A stretch of DNA of 25,785 bases from a virus. Under the pieces are notes generated by a model that was not told the origin of the DNA, made no database searches, and was given only the letters and a program-made list of their open reading frames with translations. The stretch lies in IMG/VR virus record IMGVR_UViG_3300037210_000002, positions 1 through 25,785 of that record; one strand, given 5' to 3'. Below, piece by piece: positions 423 through 25,753 of the stretch. The position numbers and the translations under genes were made by a program. The number at the start of each line of letters is the position of its first letter. The stretch's first letter is position 1.

Positions 423-716
423 ATGATCCGTTGCCAGGCACGTCTCCCACTCGGCCAGCGGCCCCGAGTCGTCATCGCTGAAAGCGGCTGGCCCGAAGCG
501 GTGCAGGACTTCTGCGAGCAGTCCGTCGGCATCGCAACCTGGACGGACGGCACCGGGACGCTCCGCGCCGCCTGCTCTATCGAAGGCCACATGGCGGACG
601 TGCGCTCTCAATCGGACTGCGACGAGGATCGCGCGTTGCGGGTGCTGGACGAGATGCGCGAACGTGCCCGCCGTGAGTGGGAGGAAGACTGGTTCGAGAG
701 GAGTTCATACGCATGA
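423..716 (+). CDS. Hypothetical protein, 97 aa
   Basis: ATG 423 is chosen because a near-perfect Shine-Dalgarno (GGAGGTGA, 411-418) sits 4 nt upstream; an in-frame ATG at 390 would add 11 residues but has a poorer site. The N-terminal half has alternating hydrophobics ([15 protein letters not shown]) and the last 30 residues form a highly charged Glu/Arg helix ([16 protein letters not shown]). No catalytic motif is visible and I do not recognise the family. The stop overlaps the start of the pentapeptide-repeat gene in an ATGA arrangement, so the two are probably translationally coupled. Confidence 0.75.
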
Positions 717-1573
717 AAGGGGCGGAAGTGGCAATCACGATCAAGTCCATTGATGGGGCGGTCCTGTACGTCGCGGAGAGCGCGGCGGATATGCGCGCGG
801 CTCTCGTGGAGGCGGTGGGTAAGGGGGCCGACCTCTCCAGGGCCGACCTCTACGGGGCCTACCTCACCGGGGCCAACCTCACCGGGGCCAACCTCACCGG
901 GGGCGACCTCTACGGGGCCTACCTCACCGGGGCCAACCTCACCGGGGCCGACCTCACCGGGGCCAACCTCTCCAGGGCCAACCTCTCCTGGGCCAACCTC
1001 TACGGGGCCTACCTCTACGGGGCCTACCTCTACAGGGCCGACCTCACCAGGGCCGACCTCTCCAGGGCCGACCTCTACGGGGCCTACCTCTACAGGGCCA
1101 ACCTCTCCGGGGCCAACCTCTACAGGGCCAACCTCACCGGGGCCAACCTCACCGGGGCCGACGGTATAGACCCACGCCGCCACAACGACCTGCTCATGCT
1201 GCTCGACCAGCCGGGCGCCATTTGTGCCTACAAACTCGTCCGGGGCGACTACGGCAGCCCGATGGGCTACGGCCCGCTGTACTACACCGTCGGCACCACT
1301 CTCACCGAGGCGGACGCCGATACAGACGCCACGCACGACTGCGGACGGGGGATCAACCTCGCGACCCTGCCGTGGGCCATGCGCGAATGGACCGAAGGCC
1401 ACCGCATCATGCTCGTGGAATTCACCGCCGCCGATATCGCCGCCATCCCGCTCGGAGGGACGTTCCGGGTGAGGAAGTGCACTGTCATCAAGGAGCTTGA
1501 CCTCGTGGAGCTGGGCCTCGTTGAGCCGGTCGCCAAGCCGAAGCGCGTCCGAAAGCCGAAGGTCGCCGCATGA
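713..1573 (+). CDS. Pentapeptide-repeat protein, 286 aa
   Basis: Residues 39-148 are 22 uninterrupted pentapeptides of the form A(D/N/Y)L(S/T/Y)(G/R/W), the classic pattern of the right-handed quadrilateral beta-helix, predicting about 5.5 coils. The N-terminal 38 residues form a short beta/alpha region. The C-terminal 135 residues are a separate globular part (with [17 protein letters not shown] and FRVRKCTVI) that resembles the C-terminal domain often found behind pentapeptide repeats in phage proteins, followed by a basic tail. ATG 713 is preferred over the in-frame GTG 677: it overlaps the previous stop and has GAGAGGAG upstream. The family includes gyrase-protecting DNA mimics (Qnr/MfpA), but phage members mostly have no known role, so no function is asserted. 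Confidence 0.93.
827..1156 (+). repeat. 15-bp tandem repeat array, 22 units, in coding sequence
   Basis: Consecutive 15-bp units follow GCC-(A/G/T)AC-CTC-(ACC/TCC/TAC)-(GGG/AGG/TGG), with one unit starting GGC. Variation is almost confined to alternative second, fourth and fifth codons, while the GCC and CTC codons are nearly invariant even at silent positions. This indicates recent unit duplication or homogenisation rather than ancient protein repeats. Each unit is an exact codon multiple, so gain or loss would change the number of beta-helix rungs without a frameshift. Confidence 0.97.
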
Positions 1574-11179: not shown

Positions 11180-11844
11180 AGCCATTCGACTCCGAAACGA
11201 TGTGCGGCGCTACGATCCGTCGCGGTCATGACAGTGACGGGGTTGGCGGACGGCCTTGCCAGAGGCCTAAAGGGTGGGGAACGAGCCACGCTAGCACTGG
11301 GCTGTGCAAGCTCCACCTTGGCTCAACCGCGGGCATGACGCGCGCTGCTGCGACTGAGGGCGCGACCAAAGCGCTCGCAAGGCTGGGCCAGCCGATAGCC
11401 ACCAACCCACAGCAAGCGTTGCTCGATCTGGTGTCAGAGGCAGCCGGCAACGTCGCATTCCTCCGCGAGCAGGCCGGCGGCATGGGAGTCAACCTCACCC
11501 TGAACGCGTCGGAGGTATCCGCACGCGCCACAGACATCTCAGTCGAGATGGACGGCGAGCTTACTGAGGTGCACTCGCGCGTCGTCACGATCCGCGAAGA
11601 CGTACGGGCGCTGGTGAAGCTCTACGGCGAGTGGTGCGACCGCCTCGCCAACTACGCCAAGGAAGCCATCAAGGCAGGCATCGCAGAGCGCGAGATCGCG
11701 CTGGTAGAGGCGCAGGCCGATCTAGTGGCGCGTGTCATCGTGCGGGCGCTGGAAGGCTTGCCGGATGCCGAGTTTGAGCGGCGCAAGATGGACGCAATGG
11801 ACGAACTGGTACGGGTGAAGGTGCTACCCGGAAGCCGCAACTAA
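11176..11844 (+). CDS. Probable small terminase subunit (zinc-knuckle, HGGxSTG-like), 222 aa
   Basis: The N-terminus holds C10-G-x-x-I-R-R-G, then GRPCQRP (C28), then TGLCKLHLGSTAG (C44, H47). This is the Cys/His cluster of phage proteins usually carrying HGGxSTG; here the HGG is replaced by HLG. The rest is helical (residues 75-215). Such proteins are often encoded next to the large terminase and are annotated as small terminase subunits, as is the case here (TAATG overlap with the next gene). The expected role is recognition of the packaging site on phage DNA. The assignment rests on position and the N-terminal pattern. Confidence 0.65.
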   Translation: MKPFDSETMCGATIRRGHDSDGVGGRPCQRPKGWGTSHASTGLCKLHLGSTAGMTRAAATEGATKALARLGQPIATNPQQALLDLVSEAAGNVAFLREQAGGMGVNLTLNASEVSARATDISVEMDGELTEVHSRVVTIREDVRALVKLYGEWCDRLANYAKEAIKAGIAEREIALVEAQADLVARVIVRALEGLPDAEFERRKMDAMDELVRVKVLPGSRN

Positions 11845-13127
11845 TGGGCTTCGAGCAGGCTGTCTATGATCGCCTGGCGGTAAGCGGCCCGCGGGGCTCC
11901 GTCCACATCCCCTACCCGCAGACATGGGCCAGTCCCGAGCATCGGCGGTTCTTCGAGAGCGAGTCGCCCGAGCTGTTGGGCAGCGGACAGATGGGCTCAG
12001 GCAAGAGCCGCGTGCTGGTAGAGAAAGCGTGGTGGCTCGGGCTCTCCTACCCCGGCGCCGAACTGGCGATCATCCGCAAGGTGCACAAAGACCTTGCGCT
12101 GACGACAGAGCGCACGTTCTGGACGGAGGTAGCCAAGCCTGAGCTACTCGTGCATCGCAACATGTCCGAGCATTGGGTGGACTTCGGCTCGCGCTCCAAA
12201 CCCTCAAGACTGTGGTTCTTGGGGCTTGACCACGACCCCACTACCGGGCAGCCGTCGAAGATCGGCTCGGCCAACCTGGACTGGGCAGGCGTAGATGAGG
12301 CGATCCAACTAGACCAAACAGACTGGATCATGGTCGGTGGCCGTATACGCAGACAGACGCTCCCGTACCGCCAGCTGGCAGCCGTGACGAACCCGGCATG
12401 GCCGCGCCACTGGCTCAAACTGCACTTCGCTCCTGGGGAGGGGCACGAGTACATCGACCTGCGCGATAACGCCTTCCTGCCCGACGACTACGCCGTGCGC
12501 CTTGCGTCGATGGGCGACTCAGCCGATGCCAAGCGACTCGCACAAGGGCTGTGGGTACAGGCAGAGGGCACGATCTGGACGCTCTCAGACTCGCAGATAC
12601 GGAGCGTCGAAGGTCCGTTCCGCCACGTCCATGCCGGCGTTGACTGGGGCTTCGTCCATGCGTTCGCGTGTGAGATCGTCGGGCAGGTTTCGGAGGGCAA
12701 GCTCTCAGTCCTGGCGGAGGTTTACGAGCACGGCGCGACCGTGGGCGACGTTATCCCGTACCTGATTGAGCTGCGCGACCGCTATGAAGTCGAGATGTTC
12801 TACGCGGACCCGTCCCAGCCGGAGCACATCCTCCAATGCCAGCGAGCAGGGATACCGATGCAGCCCGCGACAAACGATGTGCTGCCGGGCATCAACGCCG
12901 TGACCGAGGCCATCGCTCACGGCCTAACGGTAGCCCCGGCCTGCTCCGGCCTGCTCTCCGAGATGCCGGGCTACGTCTGGATGCCCGCCCGAGGCGGCGG
13001 CTTGCAGGAACGTCCGATTGAGGTTGGTGACGACGCTTGCGATGCGCTACGATATGCTGTAATGAGTTTTGGGCCTGGGGCAAACCCGTTCGCTCAGCCA
13101 CTGTCTTCGGCAGGGGGTATCGCTTAG
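11844..13127 (+). CDS. terL: Terminase large subunit, 427 aa
   Basis: The ATPase half has Walker A GSGQMGSGKS (46-55) and Walker B LDWAGVDEA with the D151-E152 pair. The RNase H-like nuclease half has GVDWGF (D267), FYADPSQPE (D322) and EVGDDACDALRYAV (about 393-406), the three acidic clusters of Terminase_3 / PBSX-type enzymes. It packages DNA into the prohead, driven by ATP, and makes the cuts at packaging start and end. The length is normal for the family and the start (TAATG) overlaps the small-terminase candidate. Confidence 0.97.
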   Translation: MGFEQAVYDRLAVSGPRGSVHIPYPQTWASPEHRRFFESESPELLGSGQMGSGKSRVLVEKAWWLGLSYPGAELAIIRKVHKDLALTTERTFWTEVAKPELLVHRNMSEHWVDFGSRSKPSRLWFLGLDHDPTTGQPSKIGSANLDWAGVDEAIQLDQTDWIMVGGRIRRQTLPYRQLAAVTNPAWPRHWLKLHFAPGEGHEYIDLRDNAFLPDDYAVRLASMGDSADAKRLAQGLWVQAEGTIWTLSDSQIRSVEGPFRHVHAGVDWGFVHAFACEIVGQVSEGKLSVLAEVYEHGATVGDVIPYLIELRDRYEVEMFYADPSQPEHILQCQRAGIPMQPATNDVLPGINAVTEAIAHGLTVAPACSGLLSEMPGYVWMPARGGGLQERPIEVGDDACDALRYAVMSFGPGANPFAQPLSSAGGIA

Positions 13128-13537: not shown

Positions 13538-13710
13538 AGCTTGACAAGTTCGACCGCCTGATCCTCTCCGGCACGATAGCCGGCGCGGTAGGGTTCGGGC
13601 TCGTCTGGCTTCCCCTGGCTCTACTCTTTCTGGCAACTGAGGCGTTCAGCCTGGCAGCCGTAATCGACCGGCGAACCGTAGAGGAGCGCGGAGAGGGCAC
13701 CATGACGTGA
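13534..13710 (+). CDS. Small membrane protein, 58 aa
   Basis: ATG 13534 and the final TGA both sit in 4-nt overlaps. Residues 9-45 are hydrophobic (LILSGTIAGAVGFGLVWLPL, then LLFLATEAFSLAAVI), predicted as one or two membrane helices, with a charged C-terminus. It lies between the terminase and portal genes, an unusual place for a membrane protein. No role is assigned. Confidence 0.65.
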   Translation: MKLDKFDRLILSGTIAGAVGFGLVWLPLALLFLATEAFSLAAVIDRRTVEERGEGTMT

Positions 13711-16331
13711 GTCTGCTAGTCCCTCAGCGGCGCGTGGAAACGGCGCTTCCTCCCGCCGGTCCCGTCAAGGCCGGTCCCGTTGGTCCTGGGGCGGGACCGC
13801 TTCTCACCGAGTACGCTCTGAACACCGTACTCAAGCGCTCCCCTCAGCAGCTGATGGCGCAGTCGGCCACGCTCTGGCGTGAGGTGTCCTGGATACGCGC
13901 AGCCGAGCGAGTTATATCCGGCGCTATCGCGGGCTCACCTATCCCCGGCGGCGAGGGCAAGGTGGGCTGGCACCTGGAGGACCCGGACGGTGAGACGATA
14001 GACGACACGTATGCGGACCCGCGAGCGAAGGAAGCCTATACGCTGCTGAGCAACCCGCAGGCCAACACGGAAGGCCAGCGGTTATCTCGCCGGGCCATGT
14101 GGAGCCTGACTTCGAGGCACATGGGCATCTGCGGGTCATCGTTCTGGTACAAAGACCAGGTGGACGCCTACGGCATCCCCGCGTCGTATCTCTACATCCG
14201 ACCGGACCGCCTCACGCCGATGACGGATGACGACGGCAACCTGGCCTACTGGCTGCTCGACGCGGACAAGCGTGGCCAGAAGCCGCAACGTCTGGAGATC
14301 GCGGACCTGTTGCAGTTCAACCTGGAGGAGCCGGATGAGGGTTTCTTCGGCGTCGGGTTGGTTGTATCGGCGATCAATAAAATCCAGTTCGGTCAGGCGC
14401 TGGATCGGCACGCTACTTCCGTCGTTGCCTCCGGTGGGCGGCTCTCGGGCATCATCAGCCCGAAGCAGGGCGTCATCGATAACGACAACATCTACCAGCA
14501 GCTTGTCCGCGACTGGCGGAACATCACCGAGCAGCCGGACGCCGCCAAGCGCGCTCAGGTAGTCCGCTATCCCATCGAGTTCACCAAGACCGTCGCGGAC
14601 ATGCAGCAGCTAGAGGTTGTCAAGCTGCTTACGAATAACCGCGACGAACTGCTTGAGCTGTGGGGTGTGCCACTCTCGCAGATCGGCGGTAACTCTCCGG
14701 CCGGGCTCAACAGCGGTGACGTGCGCAAGTACGACCGCGCCGCGTTGATACAGAACGCCGTCGAGCCGCGCTGCGACGTGATGACCGAAGCGATCCAGAC
14801 CGACCTGAACTGCTGGACCGGCTACCTTGGTTGGGCTCCGAAGTTCGTGTTCGACGTACCGCAGTTCTCGGACGACTCCGCTCGTCACGATCTCGTTGAC
14901 AAGGACAAGATCGTGCCAATGAAGGGCTGGGAGCGCCGTGCTCAGATCGGTCTGGACCCTCTCGGTCCCGGAGTCCTGGACGCGCAGGGTCGGCCGATTG
15001 ATGACGTGGTGCTGATCTTCGGCGGCGCCTCGGGGATGACCGAGATCGGCATCGGTCCGAGCGCTGCCAGTACGGGCGTTATCGCGGGTGCGCAGGACAC
15101 CTCCGCAGAGTCGCCGAGTCCGGCGGAAGAGGCGGCAGCCGCGCGTGCGCCGAGGGTCACCCCACCGCCTATAGCCAAGGCGAAGCAGCTTTCCCAGGAT
15201 GCGTACGTGAAGCTTGTAACGGTCGATCTGGCCCATCAGTACCCGTCGAAGCTGCTGGATTGGGTGAAGATGTGCACCTGGGAGTTCGATCCTTCCGTCA
15301 AGCTCAAGCGTATCGACATGACCAAGACGCCCACCGAGCTGGCGGGGAATGTCGTGGGAGCGATTGACGCGGCGCTCAAGGTCGGAGCCGATATCGATCC
15401 GCTCGTACTCGTGTCCCTTCCGTCTAAGGCGAAGATGCCCATCGCGAACGGCAATCACCGCGCCGCTGCCGCGGTAGCGCAGGGGATCAAGAAGGTCCAG
15501 GCGTACATCGGCTCCGCTTCCGTGGCGAACGAGCAGGATGTTCTCGATGCCATAACCGAGATGCAGGAACCGAAGTACACCGAGAAGGGCAAGGCCGATC
15601 TTGGCAGCGCTATGCGCGGCTTCCGTACCGGGCTGGAGCTAGAGGTCAAGCCGAAGCTCCTGGCGTCCGCAGCGCGGGTTTTGGCCGCTCAGAAGCAGTC
15701 CGTACTCGGAGAGGTGCGACTCCACTACGCTCACGTCCTTAGCCATCCGAAGGACTCTTCCGTATGGTGGAAGCCGGATTGGGACGCGCAGATGATGGCC
15801 GCGCTCTCCGGCTCTTACGAGGCCATCGGGTCGCAGGTAGCGGCGCAGGTGAACGCCCACAAGGCGGACTTAGGGGTGGCGTTCGGGCCTGCCGTGCCTG
15901 TTCCTCCGAGAGTCATTGCGTCGATTCTCACGAAGGCCGCGGCGCGGGTAAAGGGCATCAACGAGACTACTCGTGACGATCTGACGGCCCTAATCGCTCA
16001 GGGCGCGAAGGACGGTTTGTCTCCAGCGGCGCTGGGAGACGCTATCGGGGCTTACACGGGCTGGGATGAGTACCGCTCCGAGCGCATCGCCACGACGGAA
16101 CTGGCCCGGGCGTACAACGACGCCGCGCTGGGTTCCTACCGTGAGGCCGGGGTGGAGATGGTCCAGGCGGACGACGCCTGCACCTGCGACGAGTGCCAGG
16201 CGGCTTTCGGGGACTCGCCGGTCATGTCGATGGACGACGCTGACGGGATAGAGGACCACCCGAACGGGACGCTGGAGTGGATACCCATCGTGTCCGAAGA
16301 GGTAGACGATAGCGAGGTCACCGATGAGTAG
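13707..16331 (+). CDS. Portal protein fused to ParB-like and MuF-like domains, 874 aa
   Basis: Residues about 35-440 are an HK97-type portal (FWYKDQ, LYIRPDRLTP, DLLQFNLEEPD, LLTNNRDELLELWGVPLSQI). A Pro/Ala-rich linker (about 465-495) leads to a ParB/Srx-type fold (500-602) marked by IANGNHRAAAAVAQGIKKVQAYIG spread over 579-602. Residues about 640-865 are a MuF-like head morphogenesis domain with SERIATTELARAYNDAALGS (791-810) and C825-T-C-D-E-C830. The portal forms the packaging channel at the capsid vertex; MuF domains aid head assembly and may be ejected with DNA. Start GTG 13707 overlaps the upstream stop. A portal-MuF fusion is unusual but known; the central ParB-like domain is the more novel part. 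Confidence 0.88.
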   Translation: MSLLVPQRRVETALPPAGPVKAGPVGPGAGPLLTEYALNTVLKRSPQQLMAQSATLWREVSWIRAAERVISGAIAGSPIPGGEGKVGWHLEDPDGETIDDTYADPRAKEAYTLLSNPQANTEGQRLSRRAMWSLTSRHMGICGSSFWYKDQVDAYGIPASYLYIRPDRLTPMTDDDGNLAYWLLDADKRGQKPQRLEIADLLQFNLEEPDEGFFGVGLVVSAINKIQFGQALDRHATSVVASGGRLSGIISPKQGVIDNDNIYQQLVRDWRNITEQPDAAKRAQVVRYPIEFTKTVADMQQLEVVKLLTNNRDELLELWGVPLSQIGGNSPAGLNSGDVRKYDRAALIQNAVEPRCDVMTEAIQTDLNCWTGYLGWAPKFVFDVPQFSDDSARHDLVDKDKIVPMKGWERRAQIGLDPLGPGVLDAQGRPIDDVVLIFGGASGMTEIGIGPSAASTGVIAGAQDTSAESPSPAEEAAAARAPRVTPPPIAKAKQLSQDAYVKLVTVDLAHQYPSKLLDWVKMCTWEFDPSVKLKRIDMTKTPTELAGNVVGAIDAALKVGADIDPLVLVSLPSKAKMPIANGNHRAAAAVAQGIKKVQAYIGSASVANEQDVLDAITEMQEPKYTEKGKADLGSAMRGFRTGLELEVKPKLLASAARVLAAQKQSVLGEVRLHYAHVLSHPKDSSVWWKPDWDAQMMAALSGSYEAIGSQVAAQVNAHKADLGVAFGPAVPVPPRVIASILTKAAARVKGINETTRDDLTALIAQGAKDGLSPAALGDAIGAYTGWDEYRSERIATTELARAYNDAALGSYREAGVEMVQADDACTCDECQAAFGDSPVMSMDDADGIEDHPNGTLEWIPIVSEEVDDSEVTDE

Positions 16332-17157
16332 CATGAAGGCGGGGGAGCTCAAGGCTGAGCCGTTCGACACCGGGCAGCTGGATCGCTGGCTGGCCGGTAA
16401 GCGACCGCGAAGAGTCCTGGTGGCTCCCTATGGCGGCAAGCTCAAGGCGTCGTTGTTCGGCTACCCCGACGATGAATACGGACGCGACCTCGACGGCGAA
16501 TACTTCCACCCCGATCTACCGGACGCTAAGGCAACTGACTTCTTCGGTTCGGACCGGATGCGCGTAAACCGGGACCGGCTGGTGGACTGGCACCACGTCA
16601 CGTTCATGGGCCAAAAGGACCCAATGAAGACGATGAAGGGTGCCGTTCTCGGCAAGGTCGTACTCGATGCCGGCGCGGAAGCTGATGGGCTCTGGGCCGA
16701 CTGGTGGGCCAACGCCGGAGAGGACCGCCGCCGTCTGGTGGCGTACCTGGAGCGCAAGTCGGTGCCGCTCTACAATTCCACTCAGCCGATCCAGGGCGGC
16801 ATCAAGTACGGCAAGGCCGGCGCGATAGACGTTTGGCCGATCCGCTTCGACACGATCACTACCGCACCTCAGAATGAACTGGCGGCGGTGCCGGCGCTCA
16901 AAGCGCTACTCGCCGACCCCTCTTACAGCGACTTTAGCGGGACGGCCCTGGCGGCTGCTCTCGCAGAGTCAGATGACCTCGACGCGTACCTGGCAGGGAC
17001 CTCGGAAACGGGCCAACTGTCGGCAAAGGCCGGGCGAGTCTTGTCAACCAAGACCCGGACGCAGTTGTACGAACTAGCGCGACAGCTCAGCGAGTTTGTC
17101 CGCAAGTACGATCCGACTGTGCCACCCCTAGAGGTACCAGACGATGCCAAGCACTGA
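16324..17157 (+). CDS. Capsid maturation protease candidate, 277 aa
   Basis: Position between portal and major capsid is where the prohead protease normally lies. The N-terminal two thirds is a compact alpha/beta region (DRLVDWHHVTF, MKGAVLGKVVLDAGAEADGL, GAIDVWPIRFDTITT) and the C-terminus carries SAKAGRVLSTKTRTQLYELA, a segment often seen at the end of prohead proteases. A His (H90 or H91) and Ser candidates exist, but the catalytic residues cannot be fixed by eye. ATG 16324 overlaps the portal stop by 8 nt with GAGGTCACC upstream. A scaffold or head protein is the alternative. Confidence 0.68.
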   Translation: MSSMKAGELKAEPFDTGQLDRWLAGKRPRRVLVAPYGGKLKASLFGYPDDEYGRDLDGEYFHPDLPDAKATDFFGSDRMRVNRDRLVDWHHVTFMGQKDPMKTMKGAVLGKVVLDAGAEADGLWADWWANAGEDRRRLVAYLERKSVPLYNSTQPIQGGIKYGKAGAIDVWPIRFDTITTAPQNELAAVPALKALLADPSYSDFSGTALAAALAESDDLDAYLAGTSETGQLSAKAGRVLSTKTRTQLYELARQLSEFVRKYDPTVPPLEVPDDAKH

Positions 17158-18652
17158 GCAAGACCCCCTGAACGAAACCATGACGGGTCTGCTCGCCGAG
17201 ATGCGAAAGATCACGGCGCAGCAGGAGTCCGGGGGCAAGACAGACATCACGGTGAAAGCCAAGGCCGATACCGTGAAGGCGCTCAACGAAGAGCGCGAGA
17301 AGCTCTCCAAGAAGGAGCGCAAGGAAGCCAAGGCCAAGGCGAAGGACGCCCAGGCCGAGATGGACGAGCGCTTCCGCCGGATCATGCGCGACGAGTTGCA
17401 CGGCGTGCGTGCTCCGAGCCTCAAGATCGGCAAGGCGGATATAGAGAAGGAGCCGAAGGGTCGCATCAAGGCCGGTGCCGTGCAGCGTCCGTTCCGGCCT
17501 TTCGCCAAGGCGTTCCGCGACTACCATGCCGGAGAACTGTTCGAAGCGATGGCCGCTGCCAAGGGCATGCCGCTCTTCGGTCTGGACGACGGCATGGGCG
17601 GCGTCTCGCTGGAGATGCAGCTTCGTGGGAAGGCACGGTTGGGGCAGTTGCTCCGCTATGCCGACTCGCCGGGCTTCGGCATGATCGCCGCGAAGGCGAC
17701 ACTCGGTGCCACCGCGGCTACGGGCGGATACGTTCTGCCCAACAACCTCGTTGACTCCGTGATCAAGCCGAACGTCCAGGAAGCGTTTTACTCGAAGCTC
17801 TGCACGCTGCGCTCCGGCGTGGCGGTCCGTGGAGTGGATCAGCCGTATCGCTCAGATACGACTACCCGCGCACAGATGCAGAACTGGGGTGCAACCAAGG
17901 AGAACCGGAACGAGGCCTACGGCTCGTACACGGCTACCCTCGGCACGATGGCGCTCATATACGATGTCGGGAAGCAGTACTTAAGGTTCTCTGCCGGCTC
18001 GGCAGAGGAAGACGTGATGAACGAACTTGCCAGGGCGCACGGCCTCGGTGAGAACTACGAAGTCATCGCCGGTCCGGGTACCGGCTCCTCGACTCCGGGC
18101 GTCAACGATCCGTGCTACGGCGTGTATCCGGCTCTTGTAGCCGGCATCGCCACCTTCCAGACAACAGGCTTCACCGCCGCGAACGGCACGATACTCGGCT
18201 CTGCGGGCAAGGGCTTCTCGCTCATGCTCAAGGCGCTGGCAAAGCGTGCTCGCCGGGCGACGGCCATTGTCATCGACGCTGGCCCGTATTGGGACCTTCT
18301 GGGACAGGGCACGGACACCGCCGGATTCTTCGTTCCGGCTGTTGAGTCCGCGACCACGATCTCGGGTTTCCAGCGGACCCCGGACGGCACGCTGATGTGG
18401 CATGGCGTCCCGATCTTCTCCGACGCCAACCTGGACGCCAACACGGGCGTCTCCGGCACGGCGATAGCCGGTCAGTGGGACATGCTCAAGCTGTATCGCG
18501 GAGTCGAGTTCCGCATCGACACCTCCGACCAGTCTGGTACCCGTTGGGACCAGAACCTGGTGGGATACCGCGGAGAGCAGGAATTTGGAATCAACGCCGG
18601 TTCTGCTGTCGCGGTTGGAGCGTTCCAGTACCTGACGGGTCTGGTTCCGTAA
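17144..18652 (+). CDS. HK97-fold major capsid protein, 502 aa
   Basis: Residues 1-185 are a lysine/glutamate-rich helical N-terminal region (EEREKLSKKERKEAKAKAKD at 49-68) resembling the delta or scaffold domain removed during HK97-type maturation. The mature fold begins around GATAATGGYVLPNNLVDSVI (188-207), typical of this family, followed by the expected long beta-rich body with a C-terminal LVGYRGEQEFGIN. ATG 17144 overlaps the protease gene by 14 nt, with GAGGT upstream. A hairpin follows the stop. It forms the capsid shell; the neighbouring sugar genes make it a plausible glycan acceptor. Confidence 0.93.
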   Translation: MPSTEQDPLNETMTGLLAEMRKITAQQESGGKTDITVKAKADTVKALNEEREKLSKKERKEAKAKAKDAQAEMDERFRRIMRDELHGVRAPSLKIGKADIEKEPKGRIKAGAVQRPFRPFAKAFRDYHAGELFEAMAAAKGMPLFGLDDGMGGVSLEMQLRGKARLGQLLRYADSPGFGMIAAKATLGATAATGGYVLPNNLVDSVIKPNVQEAFYSKLCTLRSGVAVRGVDQPYRSDTTTRAQMQNWGATKENRNEAYGSYTATLGTMALIYDVGKQYLRFSAGSAEEDVMNELARAHGLGENYEVIAGPGTGSSTPGVNDPCYGVYPALVAGIATFQTTGFTAANGTILGSAGKGFSLMLKALAKRARRATAIVIDAGPYWDLLGQGTDTAGFFVPAVESATTISGFQRTPDGTLMWHGVPIFSDANLDANTGVSGTAIAGQWDMLKLYRGVEFRIDTSDQSGTRWDQNLVGYRGEQEFGINAGSAVAVGAFQYLTGLVP

Positions 18653-18666
18653 GCCTTTAGCCAATC

Positions 18667-18699
18667 GTGGGGGCCGCTCGCGCTCCGGTCGGCCCCCAC
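18667..18699 (+). terminator. Hairpin after the capsid gene, possible partial terminator
   Basis: A perfect 10-bp stem (GTGGGGGCCG at 18667-18676 paired with CGGCCCCCAC at 18690-18699) with a 13-nt loop starts 14 nt after the capsid stop and ends 17 nt before the next start. There is no T-run after it, so it would be a leaky terminator, an mRNA-stabilising hairpin or a processing site. Either would let the capsid protein be made at higher level than the downstream sugar genes. Confidence 0.6.
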
Positions 18700-18716: not shown

Positions 18717-19331
18717 ATGATCACCTTGTGCATGCTCGTGAAGGACCCGCCGCTGGATCGGTTGGTAGCGCTGCTCGAATACGTCAAGCCGCTCATCGTC
18801 CAGACGGTGGCCGTGGTCGATGACCGCACCGATCCGAGAGCCTTCCTGGCGATGTCGGGCTGGGGCATAGAACTGGTCCCCTTTACCTGGGTGGACGACT
18901 TCTCGGCCGCGCGTAACGCGGCGCTCCCCTACGCCAAGGGCGACTGGATACTCCACCTGGACCCGGATGAGCTGCCGAGCGCCGACATGATGACGTTCCT
19001 CTCGATGGTGGATCGCTCGCCGTGGAGCGACGTGGAGTGGCAGGGTTCGACTTATCCCGCACCGCGCGGCTATCTGTTCTTTACCCGCAACTTCTACGAC
19101 GCCAAGCGAGGCGAGGAATACGAAGAGCACTGGCACTGCCGGCTCTTCCGTACCGCCTCTGGACGCTGGTACAAGCCCGTCCACGAGCAGGTCGCACTGG
19201 ACGATCTGCCGGAGAGCCGAACCCGCGGAACCTCGCTGCTTCCGAAAGCTCCCCGCGGCGCGTGTCTGATCCACTCCCGCATGAACGACTACCGGAAGGA
19301 CGAGCAGTACGCCTCGCTGGGTGCGCTATGA
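18717..19331 (+). CDS. Glycosyltransferase family 2-like protein, 204 aa
   Basis: A compact GT-A fold pattern is seen: LCMLVKD start, VVDDRTDP (33-40), DDFSAARNAAL (60-70, in the position of the D-x-S-x-A-x-R motif), then ILHLDPDE (78-85, the metal/sugar-nucleotide DxD-like motif) and VHE (155-157). It is expected to move a sugar from an NDP-sugar to an acceptor. ATG 18717 has GGAG upstream. This is the first gene of the sugar cassette and lies directly behind the capsid gene. Confidence 0.85.
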   Translation: MITLCMLVKDPPLDRLVALLEYVKPLIVQTVAVVDDRTDPRAFLAMSGWGIELVPFTWVDDFSAARNAALPYAKGDWILHLDPDELPSADMMTFLSMVDRSPWSDVEWQGSTYPAPRGYLFFTRNFYDAKRGEEYEEHWHCRLFRTASGRWYKPVHEQVALDDLPESRTRGTSLLPKAPRGACLIHSRMNDYRKDEQYASLGAL

Positions 19332-20218
19332 GAGTCCTGATTACCGGCGTTGCGGGGTTTATCGGCTCCCGTCTCGCAGAGGCCTTGCTGGCCCACGGCC
19401 ACGAGGTATCCGGCATCGACAACCTCTCGACGGGCGTAGCCGCGAACATCCCCTCGGATGTGAGGTTCATGCTAGGGGATATCGCAGAGGCTCCGCTGAC
19501 AGGCCGCTGGGATGTGATCTATCACTGCGCTGCGTCATATAAGGACCGCGATGCCTGGGAGCGTGACGCCCGGACGAACGTACTCGGGACGATCCGGGTC
19601 ATCCGAGAGGCGCAGCGGGTCGGCGCAAAGATCGTCTACTTTCAGACCTCGCTCTGTTACGGCCCAACTACGGGGCTCATCCGCCCGGGTTGGCCTCTCA
19701 ACCCTCAGGGTTCCTATGCCGTCTCCAAGACCGCCGGAGAGTCGTACATCCGTGACTCCGGCGTGGACTTCGTGAGTCTCCGACTGGCGAACATGTACGG
19801 CCCGCGCAATCTCTCGGGTCCGGTTCCGACGTTCTACAAGCGGCTGTCCGAAGCCCGAGAGTGCACCATCGTCGATTCGCGCCGGGACTATGTGTACGTC
19901 GATGATCTGGTGTGGTTAGCAGTGAAGGCTGCGACTGTGGGCCACGGCGTATACCACGTCAGTTCCGGCGGCGACTACAGCATCGCGGAGCTTTATCTGT
20001 CCGTAGCCGCCGCGATGGGCATAGAAGTCGCGCCGCCAGTCCTGCAAGCGCGCGGCCCCGATGACGTAGCGACTCTGCTGCTGGACTCCTGCGAGACGAA
20101 GAGCGAGTTCGGCTGGATCGCCATGACTCCGTTGCACGAGGGCATCCGTAAGGCCGTTGACTGGTACCAGAGTCACCCGATCACGGAGACGTATACCCAT
20201 CTAGCAATGAAAGGATAG
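19328..20218 (+). CDS. NAD-dependent sugar epimerase/dehydratase, 296 aa
   Basis: An extended short-chain dehydrogenase/reductase: GVAGFIG (7-13, NAD(P)-binding G-x2-G-x2-G), DIAEA (51-55), S108 with Y130-x3-K134 (YAVSK), and RDYVYVDD (186-193), the motif common in NDP-sugar epimerases and dehydratases. It probably makes or modifies the activated sugar used by the neighbouring transferases; exact sugar and reaction (4-epimerase, dehydratase or other) cannot be read from sequence. The start overlaps the first transferase gene in an ATGA arrangement, choosing 19328 over the longer frame. Confidence 0.93.
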   Translation: MRVLITGVAGFIGSRLAEALLAHGHEVSGIDNLSTGVAANIPSDVRFMLGDIAEAPLTGRWDVIYHCAASYKDRDAWERDARTNVLGTIRVIREAQRVGAKIVYFQTSLCYGPTTGLIRPGWPLNPQGSYAVSKTAGESYIRDSGVDFVSLRLANMYGPRNLSGPVPTFYKRLSEARECTIVDSRRDYVYVDDLVWLAVKAATVGHGVYHVSSGGDYSIAELYLSVAAAMGIEVAPPVLQARGPDDVATLLLDSCETKSEFGWIAMTPLHEGIRKAVDWYQSHPITETYTHLAMKG

Positions 20219-20222
20219 TCCG

Positions 20223-21038
20223 ATGCTCGTTGATCTCATCCGCGCCGCCATTGCCGATCGACTCGAAGGGAAGGTTGGAGTCGTGCTCTCCGGCGGGCTC
20301 GACAGCTCCACCGTTGCGAGATTGTCCCCGAAGGAACTGCCGACGTTCACCGGGTACTACAACGAGCCCGGCTTCGATGAGCGCCAATGGGCGAACCTTG
20401 TGCGCCACCCGGAGCACCACGAAATCCTGATCACCCCCGAGGACTTCGTGGCGAACTTCGATGACATGACGAAGTTCCTGCGGCCCCCGATCATGGGCAT
20501 GGGGACGTTCGGCCAGTACATGGTCGCTAAGTACGTCTCGCAGTACATCGACGTGGCAATGTCCGGCGAAGGCTCCGACGAGCTGTTCGGCGGCTACGCG
20601 CGCCAGATGATCGTCGCCGGCGAACCCGCGCCCGAGGGGTACGAGAACTATCAGCTTCCGGCGGGCTACCCGGACAACATCACAGACGCGCTGGCATACG
20701 ATTACGCGCTCCTGCCGGACCTGCTCGCGGTGGACGACCAGATGACCGGAGCGTTCGGCGTCGAGGCTCGGGCACCGTTCACGGATCGCCGGATCGTGGA
20801 CTACGCCCTGGCTCTTCCTGTGAGCGAGCGCATCGGCAAGCGCCACCTACGCGCCGCGGTGCGCGGCATCGTGCCGGACGGGATCATCGACCGCAAGAAC
20901 AAGATGGGCTTCCCCATTCCGCTCGTGGAGTGGGCGCAGGTAGACCCGGTTCGCACGTTCGCTATGGATCGTGTCGGCTTCCTGCCCGACCCCGCGAAGC
21001 CGTGGGACCGGGCTTGGTGGTATGAGATGTGCAAGTGA
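20223..21038 (+). CDS. Asparagine-synthase-like amidotransferase domain without glutaminase, 271 aa
   Basis: The ATP-pyrophosphatase signature SGGLDSS (23-29), SGEGSDELFGGY (114-125), VEARAPFTDRRIVDYALALP (180-199) and KMGFPIP (227-233) define an asparagine synthase B C-terminal domain. The glutamine-amidotransferase domain that normally occupies the first 200 residues or so is absent: the ORF starts at ATG 20223 with a clean AAAGGA site and no upstream remnant. It would need free ammonia, a host glutaminase, or act on another substrate. In a sugar cassette, amidation of a uronic-acid or sugar carboxyl is plausible, as proposed for AsnB-like proteins in surface polysaccharide loci. Confidence 0.88.
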   Translation: MLVDLIRAAIADRLEGKVGVVLSGGLDSSTVARLSPKELPTFTGYYNEPGFDERQWANLVRHPEHHEILITPEDFVANFDDMTKFLRPPIMGMGTFGQYMVAKYVSQYIDVAMSGEGSDELFGGYARQMIVAGEPAPEGYENYQLPAGYPDNITDALAYDYALLPDLLAVDDQMTGAFGVEARAPFTDRRIVDYALALPVSERIGKRHLRAAVRGIVPDGIIDRKNKMGFPIPLVEWAQVDPVRTFAMDRVGFLPDPAKPWDRAWWYEMCK

Positions 21039-21679
21039 TCCTCACTTGTCTCGTCACCTACAACCGCTTGCCACTGACAAAGCGGTGTGTCGAATCGTGG
21101 CGCAAGACGGCCCGCGAGCATGACCGTCTGATCATCGTGGACAACGCATCCACGGACGGCACGGTGGAATGGCTCGGCTCCGGCGTGCCCGCCCAGGTCA
21201 TCCTCAACGCTGCGAACGTCTACCCCGGACCCGCGTGTAATCAGGGCTGGAGTCTCGGGATGCAGTACGGTCCCGACTTCCTCCACCGCTGCGACAACGA
21301 CATCGAGCTTTTACCGGGCTGGGGCGACGAAGTAGAGGCGGCTTTCGCGTCTCATCCCGACCTGGCGCTGCTGGGCATCCTGAACCTGCACGAAGACCGC
21401 CACAGCGAGCCCCACGACGCTCTAGGAGCCATTGAGCCGATAGATAGGGTCGGGGGCAACGTAATCATCCCCTCGCGCTACTTCCCGTCGTGGTCATGGA
21501 CCGAGGGGTTCATCGAGGACGGACCGTTCAGCGCCGCCGGCCACATGCGCGGGACGGTGGCAATGCTCGTCAACACCGTGGCGAACAACATGGCCTTCAA
21601 CCGCGCGCTCGACTTCCCCGATTATTACCGGCAGACCGCCGCCATCCGTGGTATCGGGGACTGGGAGCACTCCACATGA
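21035..21679 (+). CDS. Glycosyltransferase family 2, 214 aa
   Basis: GT-A features: a TCLVTYNRLPLTKRCVESW start, IIVDNASTDGT (the conserved V-D-x-x-S-x-D-x-T) and HRCDNDIELLPGW with a D-N-D metal motif. GTG 21035 gives a GTGA overlap with the preceding gene and is preferred; GTG 21029 in the same frame is an alternative. The short length and lack of membrane helices suggest a soluble enzyme. It is expected to add a sugar to the growing glycan or acceptor protein. Confidence 0.85.
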   Translation: MILTCLVTYNRLPLTKRCVESWRKTAREHDRLIIVDNASTDGTVEWLGSGVPAQVILNAANVYPGPACNQGWSLGMQYGPDFLHRCDNDIELLPGWGDEVEAAFASHPDLALLGILNLHEDRHSEPHDALGAIEPIDRVGGNVIIPSRYFPSWSWTEGFIEDGPFSAAGHMRGTVAMLVNTVANNMAFNRALDFPDYYRQTAAIRGIGDWEHST

Positions 21680-22242
21680 TCACCGTGATCATCCCCACGA
21701 TCTCCGGGCGCGAGGACTCCCTGAAAAGGGTCGTCGCCGCCTATCGACGGATGCGCGGGCTCCAGATCGTCACCCCGAAGGACTACCCGAACTGGCCGGC
21801 GGGGTGCAATGCCGGGCAGCTACAGGCCAAGGGCGACATCCTCCACTTCGGCGCTGACGACCTGGAGCCTATCGATGGCTGGGCCGAGCCCATGCTGGAG
21901 TGTCTCTCGAATGGCTATATCCCGGCTCCGCAACTGTGGAACTGGGTAAAGGAAGGCGAGCCCGTCAACCAGGCCGAGGACGGTCTACCAGGGAGCTTCA
22001 CCACGTTCTCCCGCGTCCCGGCTCTGACACGCGAGATGGCGAAGGCAATCGGCCCCTGGCCGGAAATCCCGTACTACGCCGATAACTGGGTGTCCCTCAA
22101 GGGTTCTAAGGTCGGCTATCTAACGCGAGTGACCGGCGGCTACTCGTTCATCCACCACTGGAGCCAGATCGGGCGGCTGGATCAGGGTGATTGGGTGGGA
22201 AGATACCTTCCCTTGTATGAGGCTGAGGTGGCGAAGCTATGA
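21676..22242 (+). CDS. GT-A type glycosyltransferase-like protein, 188 aa
   Basis: It starts ITVIIPTISGREDSLKRVV, as GT-A enzymes do, and has HFGADDLEPIDGW with a D-D in the DxD place, but lacks the usual central V-D-D-S/G motif. Either it is a diverged glycosyltransferase or its donor-binding loop is reduced. The gene overlaps both neighbours by 4 nt. It belongs by context to the sugar cassette. Confidence 0.72.
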   Translation: MITVIIPTISGREDSLKRVVAAYRRMRGLQIVTPKDYPNWPAGCNAGQLQAKGDILHFGADDLEPIDGWAEPMLECLSNGYIPAPQLWNWVKEGEPVNQAEDGLPGSFTTFSRVPALTREMAKAIGPWPEIPYYADNWVSLKGSKVGYLTRVTGGYSFIHHWSQIGRLDQGDWVGRYLPLYEAEVAKL

Positions 22243-22793
22243 CAGTCTCCGTCGTCATCCCCACCTACAACCGCCCGGAACAATTGAAACGTGCCATCGC
22301 CTCCGTGCAGGCGCAGACGTACCCCGTCGAGTTCGTGGTGGTCCCTGATGAAACGCCCCGAGAGAACTACCCTTCCGACCCTCATGCGTTCTGGTGCGCC
22401 AAGGGCTGCAACCCCCGCAACGAGGGCTTGGACCGGGCAACCGGCGATTGGGTGATGACGCTCGACGATGACGACGAGCTAGAGCCGAACGCCGTACAGG
22501 TGCTCTTCGACGCGGTGATCTCGAACGATTGGGACGTAGCCTATGGCCGCTCGCAGATCGCGGGTGGAGGGTTTCTGGGTTCCTGGCCTCCCAGACCTTC
22601 CGGGTTCGTCAATGGCTCCGTTCTCTGGAGAGCGTCGATGGGGTATCGCTTCGATGTGGAGTGCTGGCGCAAGGGGCTACCGGCGGACTGGGACCTTTGG
22701 AGCCGCATGATCGCGGACGGCCGCAAGTGGGGCTTCGTGCCGGTAGTTGTGCATCACTACTTCCCGGCGGGACCGGCACCGATATGCGACTAG
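22239..22793 (+). CDS. Glycosyltransferase family 2, 184 aa
   Basis: Clear GT2 pattern: VVIPTYNRPEQLKRAIASV, then RNEGLDRATGDWVMTLDDDD with the D-D-D metal motif (76-79), then a short C-terminal part with DWDLWSRM. It is single-domain without membrane segments. ATG 22239 overlaps the preceding stop by 4 nt and the following start by 10 nt. Donor and acceptor are unknown. Confidence 0.88.
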   Translation: MTVSVVIPTYNRPEQLKRAIASVQAQTYPVEFVVVPDETPRENYPSDPHAFWCAKGCNPRNEGLDRATGDWVMTLDDDDELEPNAVQVLFDAVISNDWDVAYGRSQIAGGGFLGSWPPRPSGFVNGSVLWRASMGYRFDVECWRKGLPADWDLWSRMIADGRKWGFVPVVVHHYFPAGPAPICD

Positions 22794-23401
22794 CGGCCAT
22801 TATCCCCACGCGCTTTCACCCGCCTCAGCTCGACCCACTGGTCGCGCTGCTCGAGGCAGACGGCGTTCAGGTTCATATCCTGGAGTCGGAGCAGTACGGC
22901 CACCGCATCTACCGGATGTGGAACGCGGGCATGGAATTGGCTCAGGCCGACTTCATCGCCGTGCTGAACGACGACATTACGATACTACCGGGGAGTATGC
23001 CGCTGATGGCCGAGGCGCTCTCCGATCCTTCCGTGGGCATCGTCTACCCCGATGTACGGGCGGGACTGAACTTCCTGCCGTCGCTGCCGCTCACGCTGGA
23101 GCCGACCACGAGCACATGGGGCGCGGCGGGCATGACCGGCTTCTGCTTCATGTTCCGACCGCCGGCTAAGTTCGATGAGTCGTACTCGTGGTGGTACGGC
23201 GACGACGACTTCGAGGAACGCACCCGCCTATCGGGGCTGACGGTGTGCCGGATCGTCGGTCTACCGATAGGTCACTCCCCGGACGGCTCGGCAGGGCGGG
23301 TTATGCACGAGCTTGGGCCGCTGATCCAGGCGGATAGAGCACTCTGGGACAGCCGACACGGCGCACCCTCTACCGGATCGTCTTATCGGAGCGTGGAATG
23401 A
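22784..23401 (+). CDS. GT-A type glycosyltransferase-like protein, 205 aa
   Basis: Typical elements are LAAIIPTRFHPPQLDPLVAL, MWNAGMELAQADFIAVLNDD with an N-D-D motif, and a C-terminal FRPPAKFDESYSWWYGDDDF, the acceptor-side acidic cluster of GT2-like proteins. ATG 22784 overlaps the previous gene by 10 nt. The family is likely GT2, but the donor-binding motif V-D-D is replaced by VHILESEQ. Confidence 0.78.
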   Translation: MRLAAIIPTRFHPPQLDPLVALLEADGVQVHILESEQYGHRIYRMWNAGMELAQADFIAVLNDDITILPGSMPLMAEALSDPSVGIVYPDVRAGLNFLPSLPLTLEPTTSTWGAAGMTGFCFMFRPPAKFDESYSWWYGDDDFEERTRLSGLTVCRIVGLPIGHSPDGSAGRVMHELGPLIQADRALWDSRHGAPSTGSSYRSVE

Positions 23402-24570
23402 AGCTGCTGATGGTCGGCGATCTTGACGTGACGGGGTTTGGCACGGTCACGATGGACCTGGGTAAAGCCCTACTCGCCGCGGGCGTAGATGTGCGGTTCG
23501 TAGCGGATGCCGCCGGAGAGCTACCTGAGCCGTTTGCGTCTCGGACTGCCATTCTGAAAGAGGGACGGCTGGAGCTCACCGACGAAGGCCGGGAGAACTT
23601 CTCGCACCTGTTCCGGGGCGGCGCGTTCGAGGATGGCTGGATACCTGATGTCGGGCTTCTGATCGGCGATCCGGGATCATTGCTGGGTAACCCAATCCTG
23701 CTGGTCGCCGAGGACTGTCCGCTGTGGCACTACGCACCCATCGAAGGCACCGACATTCCTCCGGCGTGGCGGTTCATCTGGGACGTGGCGAAACCTATCG
23801 CGTACTGCGAGTTCGGCGCTAACGAGATCGAGCGGGCTACCGGGGTCCGTCCGCCGTGGATATATCACGGCGTAGATACCGACACCTTCCGCGAAGTTTC
23901 CGGGCTGCATCCGTTGGTAGTCGAAGGGCAAATCCTACGGACGAAGGCTCAGTGCAAGGCCCTCTTCGGATTGAACCCCAACCGGACGATCCTGCTGCGG
24001 ACGGATCGCTTCATGCCGCGCAAGGCATATCCGTCGATGTTCCGTGCCGTCATGCCGGTACTCGCGGCGCGTCCCGAGGTCGATCTGGTGATCCATTGCC
24101 GGCCCCGTGACTTAGGCGGGGACATCCGCGTGGAGCTGTCCAAGTACGGCGACCTATCGAAGCGGGTTATGTTGACGCCCGGACGGCTCCCGAGAGAAGG
24201 ACTCGTCGCGCTCTACAACGCGGCGGACCTGTATCTCTCGTCCGGCCCGGAAGGGTTCGGGCTCACCATCGCGGAGGCTCTGGCGTGCGGAGTGCCGGCG
24301 GTCGGGCTCGACTACACCGCCGTACCGGAGGTGATCGGACCTGCGGGGATGGTAGTGCCAATCGGCGCGCTAACTGATAGCATCTACTCGTACTTCTGGG
24401 CCGTCCCGGATGAGGAGCGCTACGCAGAGGCGGTAGCGTTCCTGGTGACGCACAAGCACCACCGGGAACAACTGGGGATGTTGGGCTCGATGCACGTCCG
24501 TTCGAAGTTCCAATGGGCCGAAGCTGCCCGTAAGTTCATCGACGTGATGACGCCGGAGGTAGCAGCATGA
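23398..24570 (+). CDS. Glycosyltransferase family 4-like (GT-B fold), 390 aa
   Basis: The GT-B pattern shows GDLDVTGFGTVTMDLGKAL (7-25, acceptor domain), IYHGVDTDTF (155-164), ILLRTDRFMPRKAYPSMFRA (198-217) and PEGFGLTIAEALACGVPAVG (284-303) with the E285-x7-E293 donor motif. It is a retaining transferase of a different fold from the five GT-A proteins before it, so the cassette can make at least two different linkage types. It ends in a 4-nt overlap with the connector gene, tying the cassette to the morphogenesis operon. Confidence 0.9.
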   Translation: MKLLMVGDLDVTGFGTVTMDLGKALLAAGVDVRFVADAAGELPEPFASRTAILKEGRLELTDEGRENFSHLFRGGAFEDGWIPDVGLLIGDPGSLLGNPILLVAEDCPLWHYAPIEGTDIPPAWRFIWDVAKPIAYCEFGANEIERATGVRPPWIYHGVDTDTFREVSGLHPLVVEGQILRTKAQCKALFGLNPNRTILLRTDRFMPRKAYPSMFRAVMPVLAARPEVDLVIHCRPRDLGGDIRVELSKYGDLSKRVMLTPGRLPREGLVALYNAADLYLSSGPEGFGLTIAEALACGVPAVGLDYTAVPEVIGPAGMVVPIGALTDSIYSYFWAVPDEERYAEAVAFLVTHKHHREQLGMLGSMHVRSKFQWAEAARKFIDVMTPEVAA

Positions 24571-25301
24571 GTCTCCTGTACCCGGTGGTCCCCCAGGACA
24601 TCCGCAACTACCTCTCGCTTGCCGATGCGGGAGCCGGTCCGCCTACGGGTAAGACCCGGTACGAGGACGCGGTGCTGTACGGGCACATCGCAGCGGCTAA
24701 CTCGTATCTAGAGCACGCCACTCACCGCTATCTCGCGGACCACGGCAAGGTTACCTGGGCCACTACGACTCTCCTTAGAGCACAGATGCCCATCCCCGGC
24801 TTCCGCTCGTTTGACTCGGTGACCTGGGGGCCGGTAGGCGGCACGGTGGCGTTCAACGTCTCGCTCCCTGGCGACGGCACGTCGGGCCCGCTCTACGCCC
24901 TCCAAGATGAGCTGGCGACGGGTGTATACATCGCCCTCCAGCAGCGTCCCTGGCGAGTCGATAACGAGACGTGGTACCTCGCCATGTTCGATTGGTTCGG
25001 CCACTCGGCAGACTCGCCCTTCTATCCCGGCAATATCGGCGGCGGTTACGCCTGGACCTCGATGCCGAATGACTTGGTGGTGATCGGCGAGGGGGGTTGG
25101 CTCTACGGCTCCGCGCCGGACGCCTATCGTCATGCGCTGTTGGTCCTGTCGAGTTTCTACACGAAGCGCGGATCGTCGGTGCTCTCGGACGTGACGATCA
25201 CCCCGGGCAGCGGAGAGATGCACTTCTCCCGCCTGCCGGAAGAGGCGCGAGAGTTCATCGACCAGTGGAAGCTCGGCGAGCAGGCGGTTAGCGTCGGATG
25301 A
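24567..25301 (+). CDS. Probable head-tail connector protein, 244 aa
   Basis: It begins PVVPQDIRNYLSLADAG and has AAANSYLEHATHRYL, which resembles the N-terminal helices of phage head-tail adaptor proteins, but the centre is a longer beta-rich insertion (FNVSLPGDG, WYLAMFDWFG, WTSMPNDLVVIGEGG). The C-terminus returns to a helix (YRHALLVLSSFYTKRG). Position right before a gp10-like gene supports a connector role. The start is coupled to the GT4 gene by an ATGA overlap. Confidence 0.65.
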   Translation: MSLLYPVVPQDIRNYLSLADAGAGPPTGKTRYEDAVLYGHIAAANSYLEHATHRYLADHGKVTWATTTLLRAQMPIPGFRSFDSVTWGPVGGTVAFNVSLPGDGTSGPLYALQDELATGVYIALQQRPWRVDNETWYLAMFDWFGHSADSPFYPGNIGGGYAWTSMPNDLVVIGEGGWLYGSAPDAYRHALLVLSSFYTKRGSSVLSDVTITPGSGEMHFSRLPEEAREFIDQWKLGEQAVSVG

Positions 25302-25753
25302 CAACTACCCTGTACGGCTACGACGCGCTGCAAGCCCGGTTTAGGAGACTCGGGCAGGTGGACTCGCGCCTGATGCAGATGATCCTCACCAAGGCCTCCG
25401 CGGAGGCGAAGCTCCGAGCACCCCGCCGGACCGGGAACCTCCGACGAACTATCGGCTTTACGCAACTTGGCGCGACCTCCGGGCGCGTGTTCGCTAGAGC
25501 TTCCTACGCGGCAGCGGTTGAGAAGGGCTCTCGGCCTCACGTCATCGTTCCGCGCCGGGCGTCGGTCCTGGCTTTCGCTCTCGGGTCCGGGGCACGTTTG
25601 ACGGGTTCCGCGCGAGTAGGCGCCAACATGATCTTTGCGATGCGCGTTCATCACCCCGGTACGAAAGCCAAGCCGTATCTCCTTCCGGGAGTCCGGGCGG
25701 CTATCGCCGGATCGGGGATGGCGAACGTAATCAAGGAAGCGTGGAACGAATGA
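25298..25753 (+). CDS. HK97 gp10-like morphogenesis protein, 151 aa
   Basis: APRRTGNLRRTIGF (40-53) followed by ASYAAAVEKGSRPHVIVP (68-85) and HHPGTKAKPYLLPGVRAA is the signature of the HK97 gp10 / tail-completion family that joins head and tail. Length is normal. ATG 25298 overlaps the previous stop (ATGA). Confidence 0.9.
   Translation: MTTTLYGYDALQARFRRLGQVDSRLMQMILTKASAEAKLRAPRRTGNLRRTIGFTQLGATSGRVFARASYAAAVEKGSRPHVIVPRRASVLAFALGSGARLTGSARVGANMIFAMRVHHPGTKAKPYLLPGVRAAIAGSGMANVIKEAWNE

Follow-up and report, generated by a model that had tools for sequence, protein, structure and literature searches.

A likely virion-glycosylation locus with a constant end gene and an exchanged interior between the capsid and connector genes of an uncultured phage lineage

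Introduction

Capsid and tail-tube glycans have been shown in the mycobacteriophages Che8, Corndog and Myrna (Freeman et al. 2023, via PMC12363180, PMC11256854 and PMC12619734), and in Corndog the glycosyltransferase genes lie between the portal and protease genes, in the head operon (PMC4351075). A 2013 description of the Cluster J mycobacteriophages Omega, Thibault and LittleE reports 8-10 genes between the major capsid protein (MCP) gene and the connector genes, several of them encoding glycosyltransferases (PMC3706429). Glycosyltransferase insertions at the capsid-connector site and phage capsid glycans are thus already known, both in mycobacteriophages. Here we analyzed IMG/VR record IMGVR_UViG_3300037210_000002, a single linear virus record from an uncultured phage, over positions 1 to 25,785 (25,785 bp; "the window" hereafter means this whole stretch). 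Eight genes, A to H, all on one strand, lie in it between the gene for an HK97-type MCP and that for a phrog_442 head-tail adaptor. We consider it likely that together they constitute a locus for virion glycosylation that has a fixed place between the capsid and connector genes, with H as a constant end and an exchangeable interior that sets the glycan, which here probably carries a uronamide.

The putative uronamide module consists of genes B and C, which have described counterparts in bacteria. The AsnB proteins WbpS and WbqG convert uronic acids to uronamides, as shown genetically (PMC7468200). A Bordetella wbm locus has been described with predicted asparagine synthase genes (PMC12243275), and the pockets of the Bordetella epimerases WbmG and WbmH were judged by King et al. 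to be able to hold diacetamido uronic acids, the substrate being unproven there (PMC2279256).

Results

Gene limits and overlaps were recomputed from the sequence, and they bore out the sequence-only reading of this DNA, which had described an eight-gene sugar cassette between the MCP and connector genes. The locus and its two borders are as follows.

17144..18652, plus strand: MCP, HK97 type, 5′ border of the locus (TIGR01554, 49 bits, above cut-off; phrog_10)
18717..19331, plus strand: A, GT2 transferase, 204 amino acids (aa), opens backbone type I (PF00535, 28.1 bits)
19328..20218, plus strand: B, short-chain dehydrogenase/reductase (SDR) nucleotide-sugar epimerase of the WbmG/WbmH class (PF01370, Epimerase, 134.7 bits)
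20223..21038, plus strand: C, stand-alone AsnB-type synthetase domain, 271 aa (PF00733, Asn_synthase, 178 bits)
21035..21679 (alternative GTG start 21029), plus strand: D, GT2 transferase, 214-216 aa (PF00535, 43.8 bits)
21676..22242, plus strand: E, predicted GT-A-fold protein, 188 aa (fold match of predicted structure)
22239..22793, plus strand: F, GT2 transferase, 184 aa (PF00535, 68.6 bits)
22784..23401, plus strand: G, GT2 transferase, 205 aa (PF00535, 24.2 bits)
23398..24570, plus strand: H, GT4 transferase, 390 aa, invariant last gene of the locus (PF13692/PF00534, Glycos_transf_1, above cut-off)
24567..25301, plus strand: head-tail adaptor, 3′ border of the locus (phrog_442, E 9e-5)

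A, D, F and G are Glycos_transf_2 proteins above the Pfam cut-off, although G barely clears it (cut-off 23.3 bits). E had no Pfam match, and by sequence gave only chance matches against solved structures. The AlphaFold model of E, with a mean pLDDT of 75 and a poorly modeled C-terminal part, matched the GT-A enzymes WrtF, TarS and TarP (Foldseek probability 1.00, best E 6e-6), and we assign it a predicted GT-A fold. The five GT-A transferases listed by the sequence-only reading are therefore present, four by sequence and one by fold, and Pfam matches for H, B and C agree with its one GT4 transferase, one nucleoside diphosphate (NDP)-sugar epimerase and one AsnB-like domain. Overlaps of 4 nt were found at the junctions A/B, D/E, E/F, G/H and H/adaptor, of 10 nt at F/G and of 4-10 nt at C/D, depending on the start of D. 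Since B/C, with a 4-nt gap, is the sole non-overlapping junction, every cassette gene overlaps at least one neighbor, as the earlier claim of linkage by short overlaps had it.

We gathered relatives by scans with the capsid protein and with H, followed by gene calling and profiles; in deposited phages the capsid protein as sole query gave no match. Four contigs were near-identical to the window, and 37 distinct contigs had a complete MCP-to-adaptor interval. An orthologous GT4 transferase (H), with an invariant E-x7-E region (EGFGL..AE), closes the cassette at the adaptor end in all 37 intervals; it is adjacent to the adaptor gene in 34 and overlaps it in 31. Because 29 of the 37 contigs (window included) were reached through the capsid protein and not through H, the constant presence of H is not an effect of the bait. 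Recurrence in 37 distinct contigs places the arrangement far from chance, and supports the earlier claim that several glycan enzymes make up a cassette linked with virion genes.

The interior of the locus is built on two mutually exclusive backbones, type I in 17 contigs and type II in 20. Type I, to which the window belongs, opens with A, whose orthologues are 53-65% identical and have an invariant DPDE motif; G was found in 11 of the 17 type I cassettes. Type II carries families 1 and 2 and mostly also family 4, of which family 2 resembles GT4 transferases and family 4 consists of FkbM-type methyltransferases, while family 1 had no Pfam match in the members scanned. In total there are 51 interior families, 18 of them present in one contig only, and they include a GDSL hydrolase, a hexapeptide-repeat protein, a cytidylyltransferase, methyltransferases and a second kind of epimerase. 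On a quick capsid tree (no bootstrap) the backbone type changes six times, with four of the changes forced by starred branches. The nearest relatives of the window capsid, L181 and L183 (capsid 67-70% and H 72-76% identical), carry a quite different interior, which recurs in the distant contig L194. The survey of relatives found a cassette in every complete interval, with interior genes swapped. Having a fixed site, a constant end gene and a swapped middle, the locus behaves like a serotype locus. In one relative (L019, 11651-12849) the cassette includes the GDSL hydrolase together with the hexapeptide-repeat (acyltransferase-like) protein, which suggests acylated or deacylated sugars.

Second-tier relatives of H (28-34% identity) lie directly before the head protease, capsid (phrog_752) and adaptor genes in L246, L249, L255 and L256. 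The capsids of contigs of this type were unmatched by the profile of the window's lineage, i.e., they belong to a different phage lineage. A candidate glycan locus was also seen in the cultured Tetrasphaera phage TJE1 (L302, 4875-10218), where genes for a nucleotidyltransferase, an epimerase, a methyltransferase and an H-like GT4 transferase run consecutively upstream of the terminase genes.

We then considered B and C. Among solved SDR structures B is closest to WbmH (2q1w, 339 bits) and WbmG (2pzk, 297 bits), the next match having 178 bits, and it stands well apart from GalE; its catalytic triad T107-Y130-K134 is invariant in 11 sequences. C corresponds to the synthetase half of AsnB, with the ATP-binding motif SGGLDSS and the GEGSDE motif (SGEGSDELFGGY) intact, and itself lacks an N-terminal glutaminase domain. 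Asparagine synthetases scored best both by sequence and by fold, the latter with an AlphaFold model of pLDDT 91. Searches of 22 contigs carrying C with three glutaminase families together (PF13537, PF13522 and PF00117) gave no match in 21 of them, and for these 21 we reject a glutaminase supplied in trans by the phage; the sole C carrier with a match was L041, where it fell within a frame of 512 codons at a distance of about 22 kb. Phage C may therefore rely on free ammonia, like NH3-dependent NAD synthetases, or on another amine.

The C clade comprises 26 viral contigs (support 99 in a quick tree with some long branches), and B adjoins C in 24 of them, once in reversed order. The other two members, L026 and L043, have no epimerase nearby; in L043, C heads a gene run that includes a GT2 relative of F, and in L026 the neighbors are not similar to the cassette genes of the window. 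Carriers of C include phages with unrelated terminases (phrog_2, phrog_38 and phrog_9). The window C is 78% identical to that of L014 and 74% to that of L016, which has another terminase family, as against 67-69% to those of its own lineage; the B-C pair thus travels between phages. In L036, L038, L039 and L041, C is followed at a distance of one or two genes by a relative of E (40-56% identical), and in the last three of these B-C is often flanked by relatives of D as well.

A pattern search for the AsnB family in bacterial and archaeal genomes gave 16 pattern matches, none of them a relative, and the phage AsnB clade was not found there. Bacterial counterparts were therefore sought via the epimerase. 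Of 80 bacterial epimerase loci fetched, 17 were of the WbmG/WbmH class (42-51% identity), and 16 of these had an AsnB gene upstream, no further off than about 5 kb, while the remaining locus is truncated by the end of its contig; none of the 63 other loci had one nearby. Gene calls came from a codon-usage caller, which fails in the bacterial contigs L100, L102 and L107, where tblastn was used instead. Where called, the AsnB proteins beside WbmG/WbmH-class epimerases are 613-652 aa long, and many start with MCG. They group with phage C (support 88, quick tree with some long branches), apart from other phage AsnBs. Two Bacteroidota loci (L105 and L111) have an AsnB gene followed by four SDR genes in a row, possibly a complete uronamide sugar operon that could help to identify the substrate of B and C. 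By this chain of homology, from a WbmG/WbmH-class B through the paired bacterial AsnBs to the chemistry of WbpS and WbqG, C most likely makes a uronamide. The combination of epimerase and uronamide-class AsnB is in favor of the "possibly amidated" glycan proposed earlier.

The gene order in the window is replication genes, terminase large subunit, portal/MuF fusion, a head gene with no assigned role, MCP, the eight cassette genes, adaptor and neck. The features outside the cassette and its borders are listed here.

11844..13127, plus strand: terminase large subunit, context (phrog_5653/phrog_2)
13707..16331, plus strand: portal with C-terminal head-morphogenesis (MuF-like) part, context (phrog_2662, phrog_12, phrog_19480)
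16324..17157 (start 16324 or 16333), plus strand: conserved head gene with no assigned role and no PHROG match, directly upstream of MCP (orthologue at equivalent position in relatives)
18667..18699, plus strand: intercistronic hairpin after the MCP stop, 10-bp perfect G+C stem, 13-nt loop, no T run (fold -28 kcal/mol)
25298..25753, plus strand: tail completion/neck protein, context (phrog_5, PF04883)

In the window alone the hairpin has a z of only -1.35. Across the loci, 32 have 50 nt or more between the MCP gene and the cassette, and in 20 of these a perfect stem of at least 9 bp occurs within the first 65 nt, where 0.2 would be expected from base-shuffled sequence; its position is kept while the stem sequences differ. 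Five type I contigs have a gap of at most 18 nt and no hairpin. The hairpin is a candidate attenuator or processing site that may limit transcription or stability past the abundant capsid message, in which case the cassette enzymes would be made in smaller amounts than the capsid. Co-expression with the capsid genes, which the sequence-only reading took to favor decoration of the virion, is probably attenuated by this strong hairpin. Scans for promoters and terminators gave nothing above shuffled sequence. Near the other end of the window (713-1573) lies a gene for a pentapeptide-repeat protein with about 25 tandem 15-nt units (PF00805, 137 bits), and RIIB-annotated PHROGs also match its non-repeat C-terminal part.

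Discussion

Genes for sugar transfer among phage head genes could act on the virion, on the host surface or on the phage DNA. We favor the virion, as the cassette transferases are soluble, no flippase accompanies them, and their constant place among the head genes fits the modification of a virion protein during assembly. If they instead modified the host surface late in infection (O-antigen, teichoic acid or capsule), e.g., preventing progeny from re-adsorbing to debris or excluding other phages, it would be understandable that in bacteria B and C have their homologues in sugar or polysaccharide loci and that some cassette proteins weakly match GtrB-type or exopolysaccharide transferases, and seroconverting transferases are indeed phage-encoded in known cases. 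However, the features of a gtr-type cluster were not recognized in the cassette: there was no Pfam match to a GtrA flippase or a membrane-anchored GtrB, and no protein with multiple membrane segments such as a polyprenyl-phosphate transferase. In addition, the capsid-connector position is fixed in all 37 intervals and is paralleled near head genes in the second lineage, while seroconversion genes usually lie elsewhere than in the head operon. We therefore regard a host-surface target as distinctly unlikely. Glycosylation of phage DNA (hypermodified bases) seems to us very improbable. DNA hypermodification by virus-encoded glycosyltransferases is known (Pyle et al. 2024, via PMC12619734), and the window does contain a DNA methyltransferase gene. 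However, a thymidylate-synthase homologue (PF00303), the usual maker of hydroxymethyl bases, was not found in 24 of 25 related contigs, which may be incomplete, and the cassette occupies a late structural gene position. We also know of no role for a uronamide pathway in DNA hypermodification.

A further alternative accepts virion glycosylation and concerns the chemistry of C, which might couple the activated carboxylate to an amine other than ammonia (an amino acid, an amino sugar or a protein side chain) in the manner of beta-lactam synthetase or lasso-peptide cyclases. The lack of a glutaminase domain is what one would expect if ammonia were not the nucleophile. The C model also matches beta-lactam and carbapenam synthetases, there are weak matches to lasso and macrolactam cyclases, and a precedent exists in the linking sugar of the type IX secretion system (T9SS), which is amide-bonded to the protein C terminus (PMC7468200). 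We nevertheless think this unlikely, if worth keeping in mind, given the best scores of asparagine synthetases and the grouping of C with the AsnBs of bacterial WbmG/WbmH loci; these presumably use ammonia, since they keep the glutaminase-type N terminus (MCG...). Glutaminase-free, ammonia-dependent versions of such enzymes do exist, as seen from NAD synthetase structure entries titled NH3-dependent.

Several observations weigh against a virion-glycosylation locus with a uronamide module. C scores 80.2 bits against TIGR03108, whose curated cut-off is 816.9, in part because a single domain cannot be expected to reach that cut-off. Some phages have the B-C pair, or just C, at a distance from their head genes (the portal gene is 17.6 kb off in L026 and 10.8 kb in L039), and in ten other contigs the distance to the portal gene was not clearly closer than chance, so that clustering of B-C near the portal outside this lineage did not exceed chance per contig. 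In bacteria, the counterparts of B and C serve other sugar loci, probably cell-surface ones. No uronate-making dehydrogenase was recognized among the scanned window proteins, and the "whole stepwise pathway" of the sequence-only reading has to be given up in this respect, as the NDP-uronic-acid precursor must come from the host. Finally, nothing close to H was found among the deposited mycobacteriophages, the group in which capsid glycans are proven: with tblastn (limit 1e-8) against 50,697 phage records, three records matched and none was a mycobacteriophage. No mycobacteriophage relative of C was among the matches listed either.

Weighing these points, we propose the following mechanism for virion glycosylation. 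B, of the C4 oxidoreductase/epimerase class, would set the stereochemistry of a host-supplied UDP-hexuronic acid, possibly of the diacetamido type. C would activate the carboxylate of the hexuronic acid with ATP and amidate it, with free ammonia as the suggested donor because C has no glutaminase domain. Next, a short glycan containing the uronamide would be put together on a virion protein by the soluble transferases A, D, E, F, G and H, in the cytoplasm and while particles are being assembled. Being invariant, H probably acts on a constant acceptor, either adding the first sugar to the protein or performing another step common to all these phages, and swaps of the interior genes would change the glycan of the particle.

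We put forward a more specific proposal tentatively, at somewhat short of even chances: that this uncultured lineage possesses a fixed-site, modular "virion serotype locus," whose exchanged interior makes the surface glycan vary as O-antigens do, and of which one module makes a uronamide through a virus-only, glutaminase-free AsnB-type enzyme working on ammonia or another amine. If the virion is the target, the particles of the lineage would wear interchangeable sugar coats encoded at the site where the head is built, and a uronamide would be predicted on the virions of relatives carrying the B-C pair. The lineage would then offer a concrete system in which to ask what phage capsid glycans do outside animals, e.g., whether they shield the particle from environmental proteases or protists, or help it to adhere to host surfaces or to avoid them. 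C, a predicted amidotransferase domain of unusually small size, has chemistry that can be tested.

Compared with the bacterial systems, B resembles the Bordetella O-antigen SDRs WbmG and WbmH in structure and in its T-Y-K triad, whereas its setting is that of phage gene clusters, and the window cassette had no recognizable WbmF-type partner. C shares with WbpS and WbqG (TIGR03108-like AsnBs) a synthetase domain with ATP-binding motifs and a sugar epimerase as neighbor, but it has only 271 aa, is glutaminase-free and belongs to a separate virus clade, whereas its bacterial counterparts beside epimerases have 613-652 aa.

Among phages, the arrangement had been thought to appear unusual, and it is not unique. 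The cultured Pontimonas phage phiPsal1 (MG835450) has the order MCP, GT4, methyltransferase, GT2 and neck at the same site, and its GT4 transferase matches the H profile with 86.8 bits; it differs in having just two transferases and a methyltransferase, and a capsid and neck unmatched by our lineage profiles. The occurrence of an H-like GT4 transferase at head genes in both the second lineage and phiPsal1 makes a moron-like accident unlikely. The Cluster J mycobacteriophages also share the site, with several glycosyltransferases and tailoring enzymes and variation between relatives, and differ in that the available portion of their description mentions no uronamide module (PMC3706429). Che8, Corndog and Myrna likewise encode glycosyltransferases, in Corndog inside the head operon, but in smaller sets than the window cassette. 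The Che8 genes for gp108-110 are located close to the right end of the genome, with no uronamide genes seen in that stretch; orthology of the cassette families to Che8 gp108-gp110 was rejected, the matches being generic ones of 13-15 bits only. Relative to the open-licence literature, what is new here is a lineage-wide constant site with an exchanged interior, an invariant GT4 transferase, a uronamide-type B-C module and a glutaminase-free viral AsnB clade.

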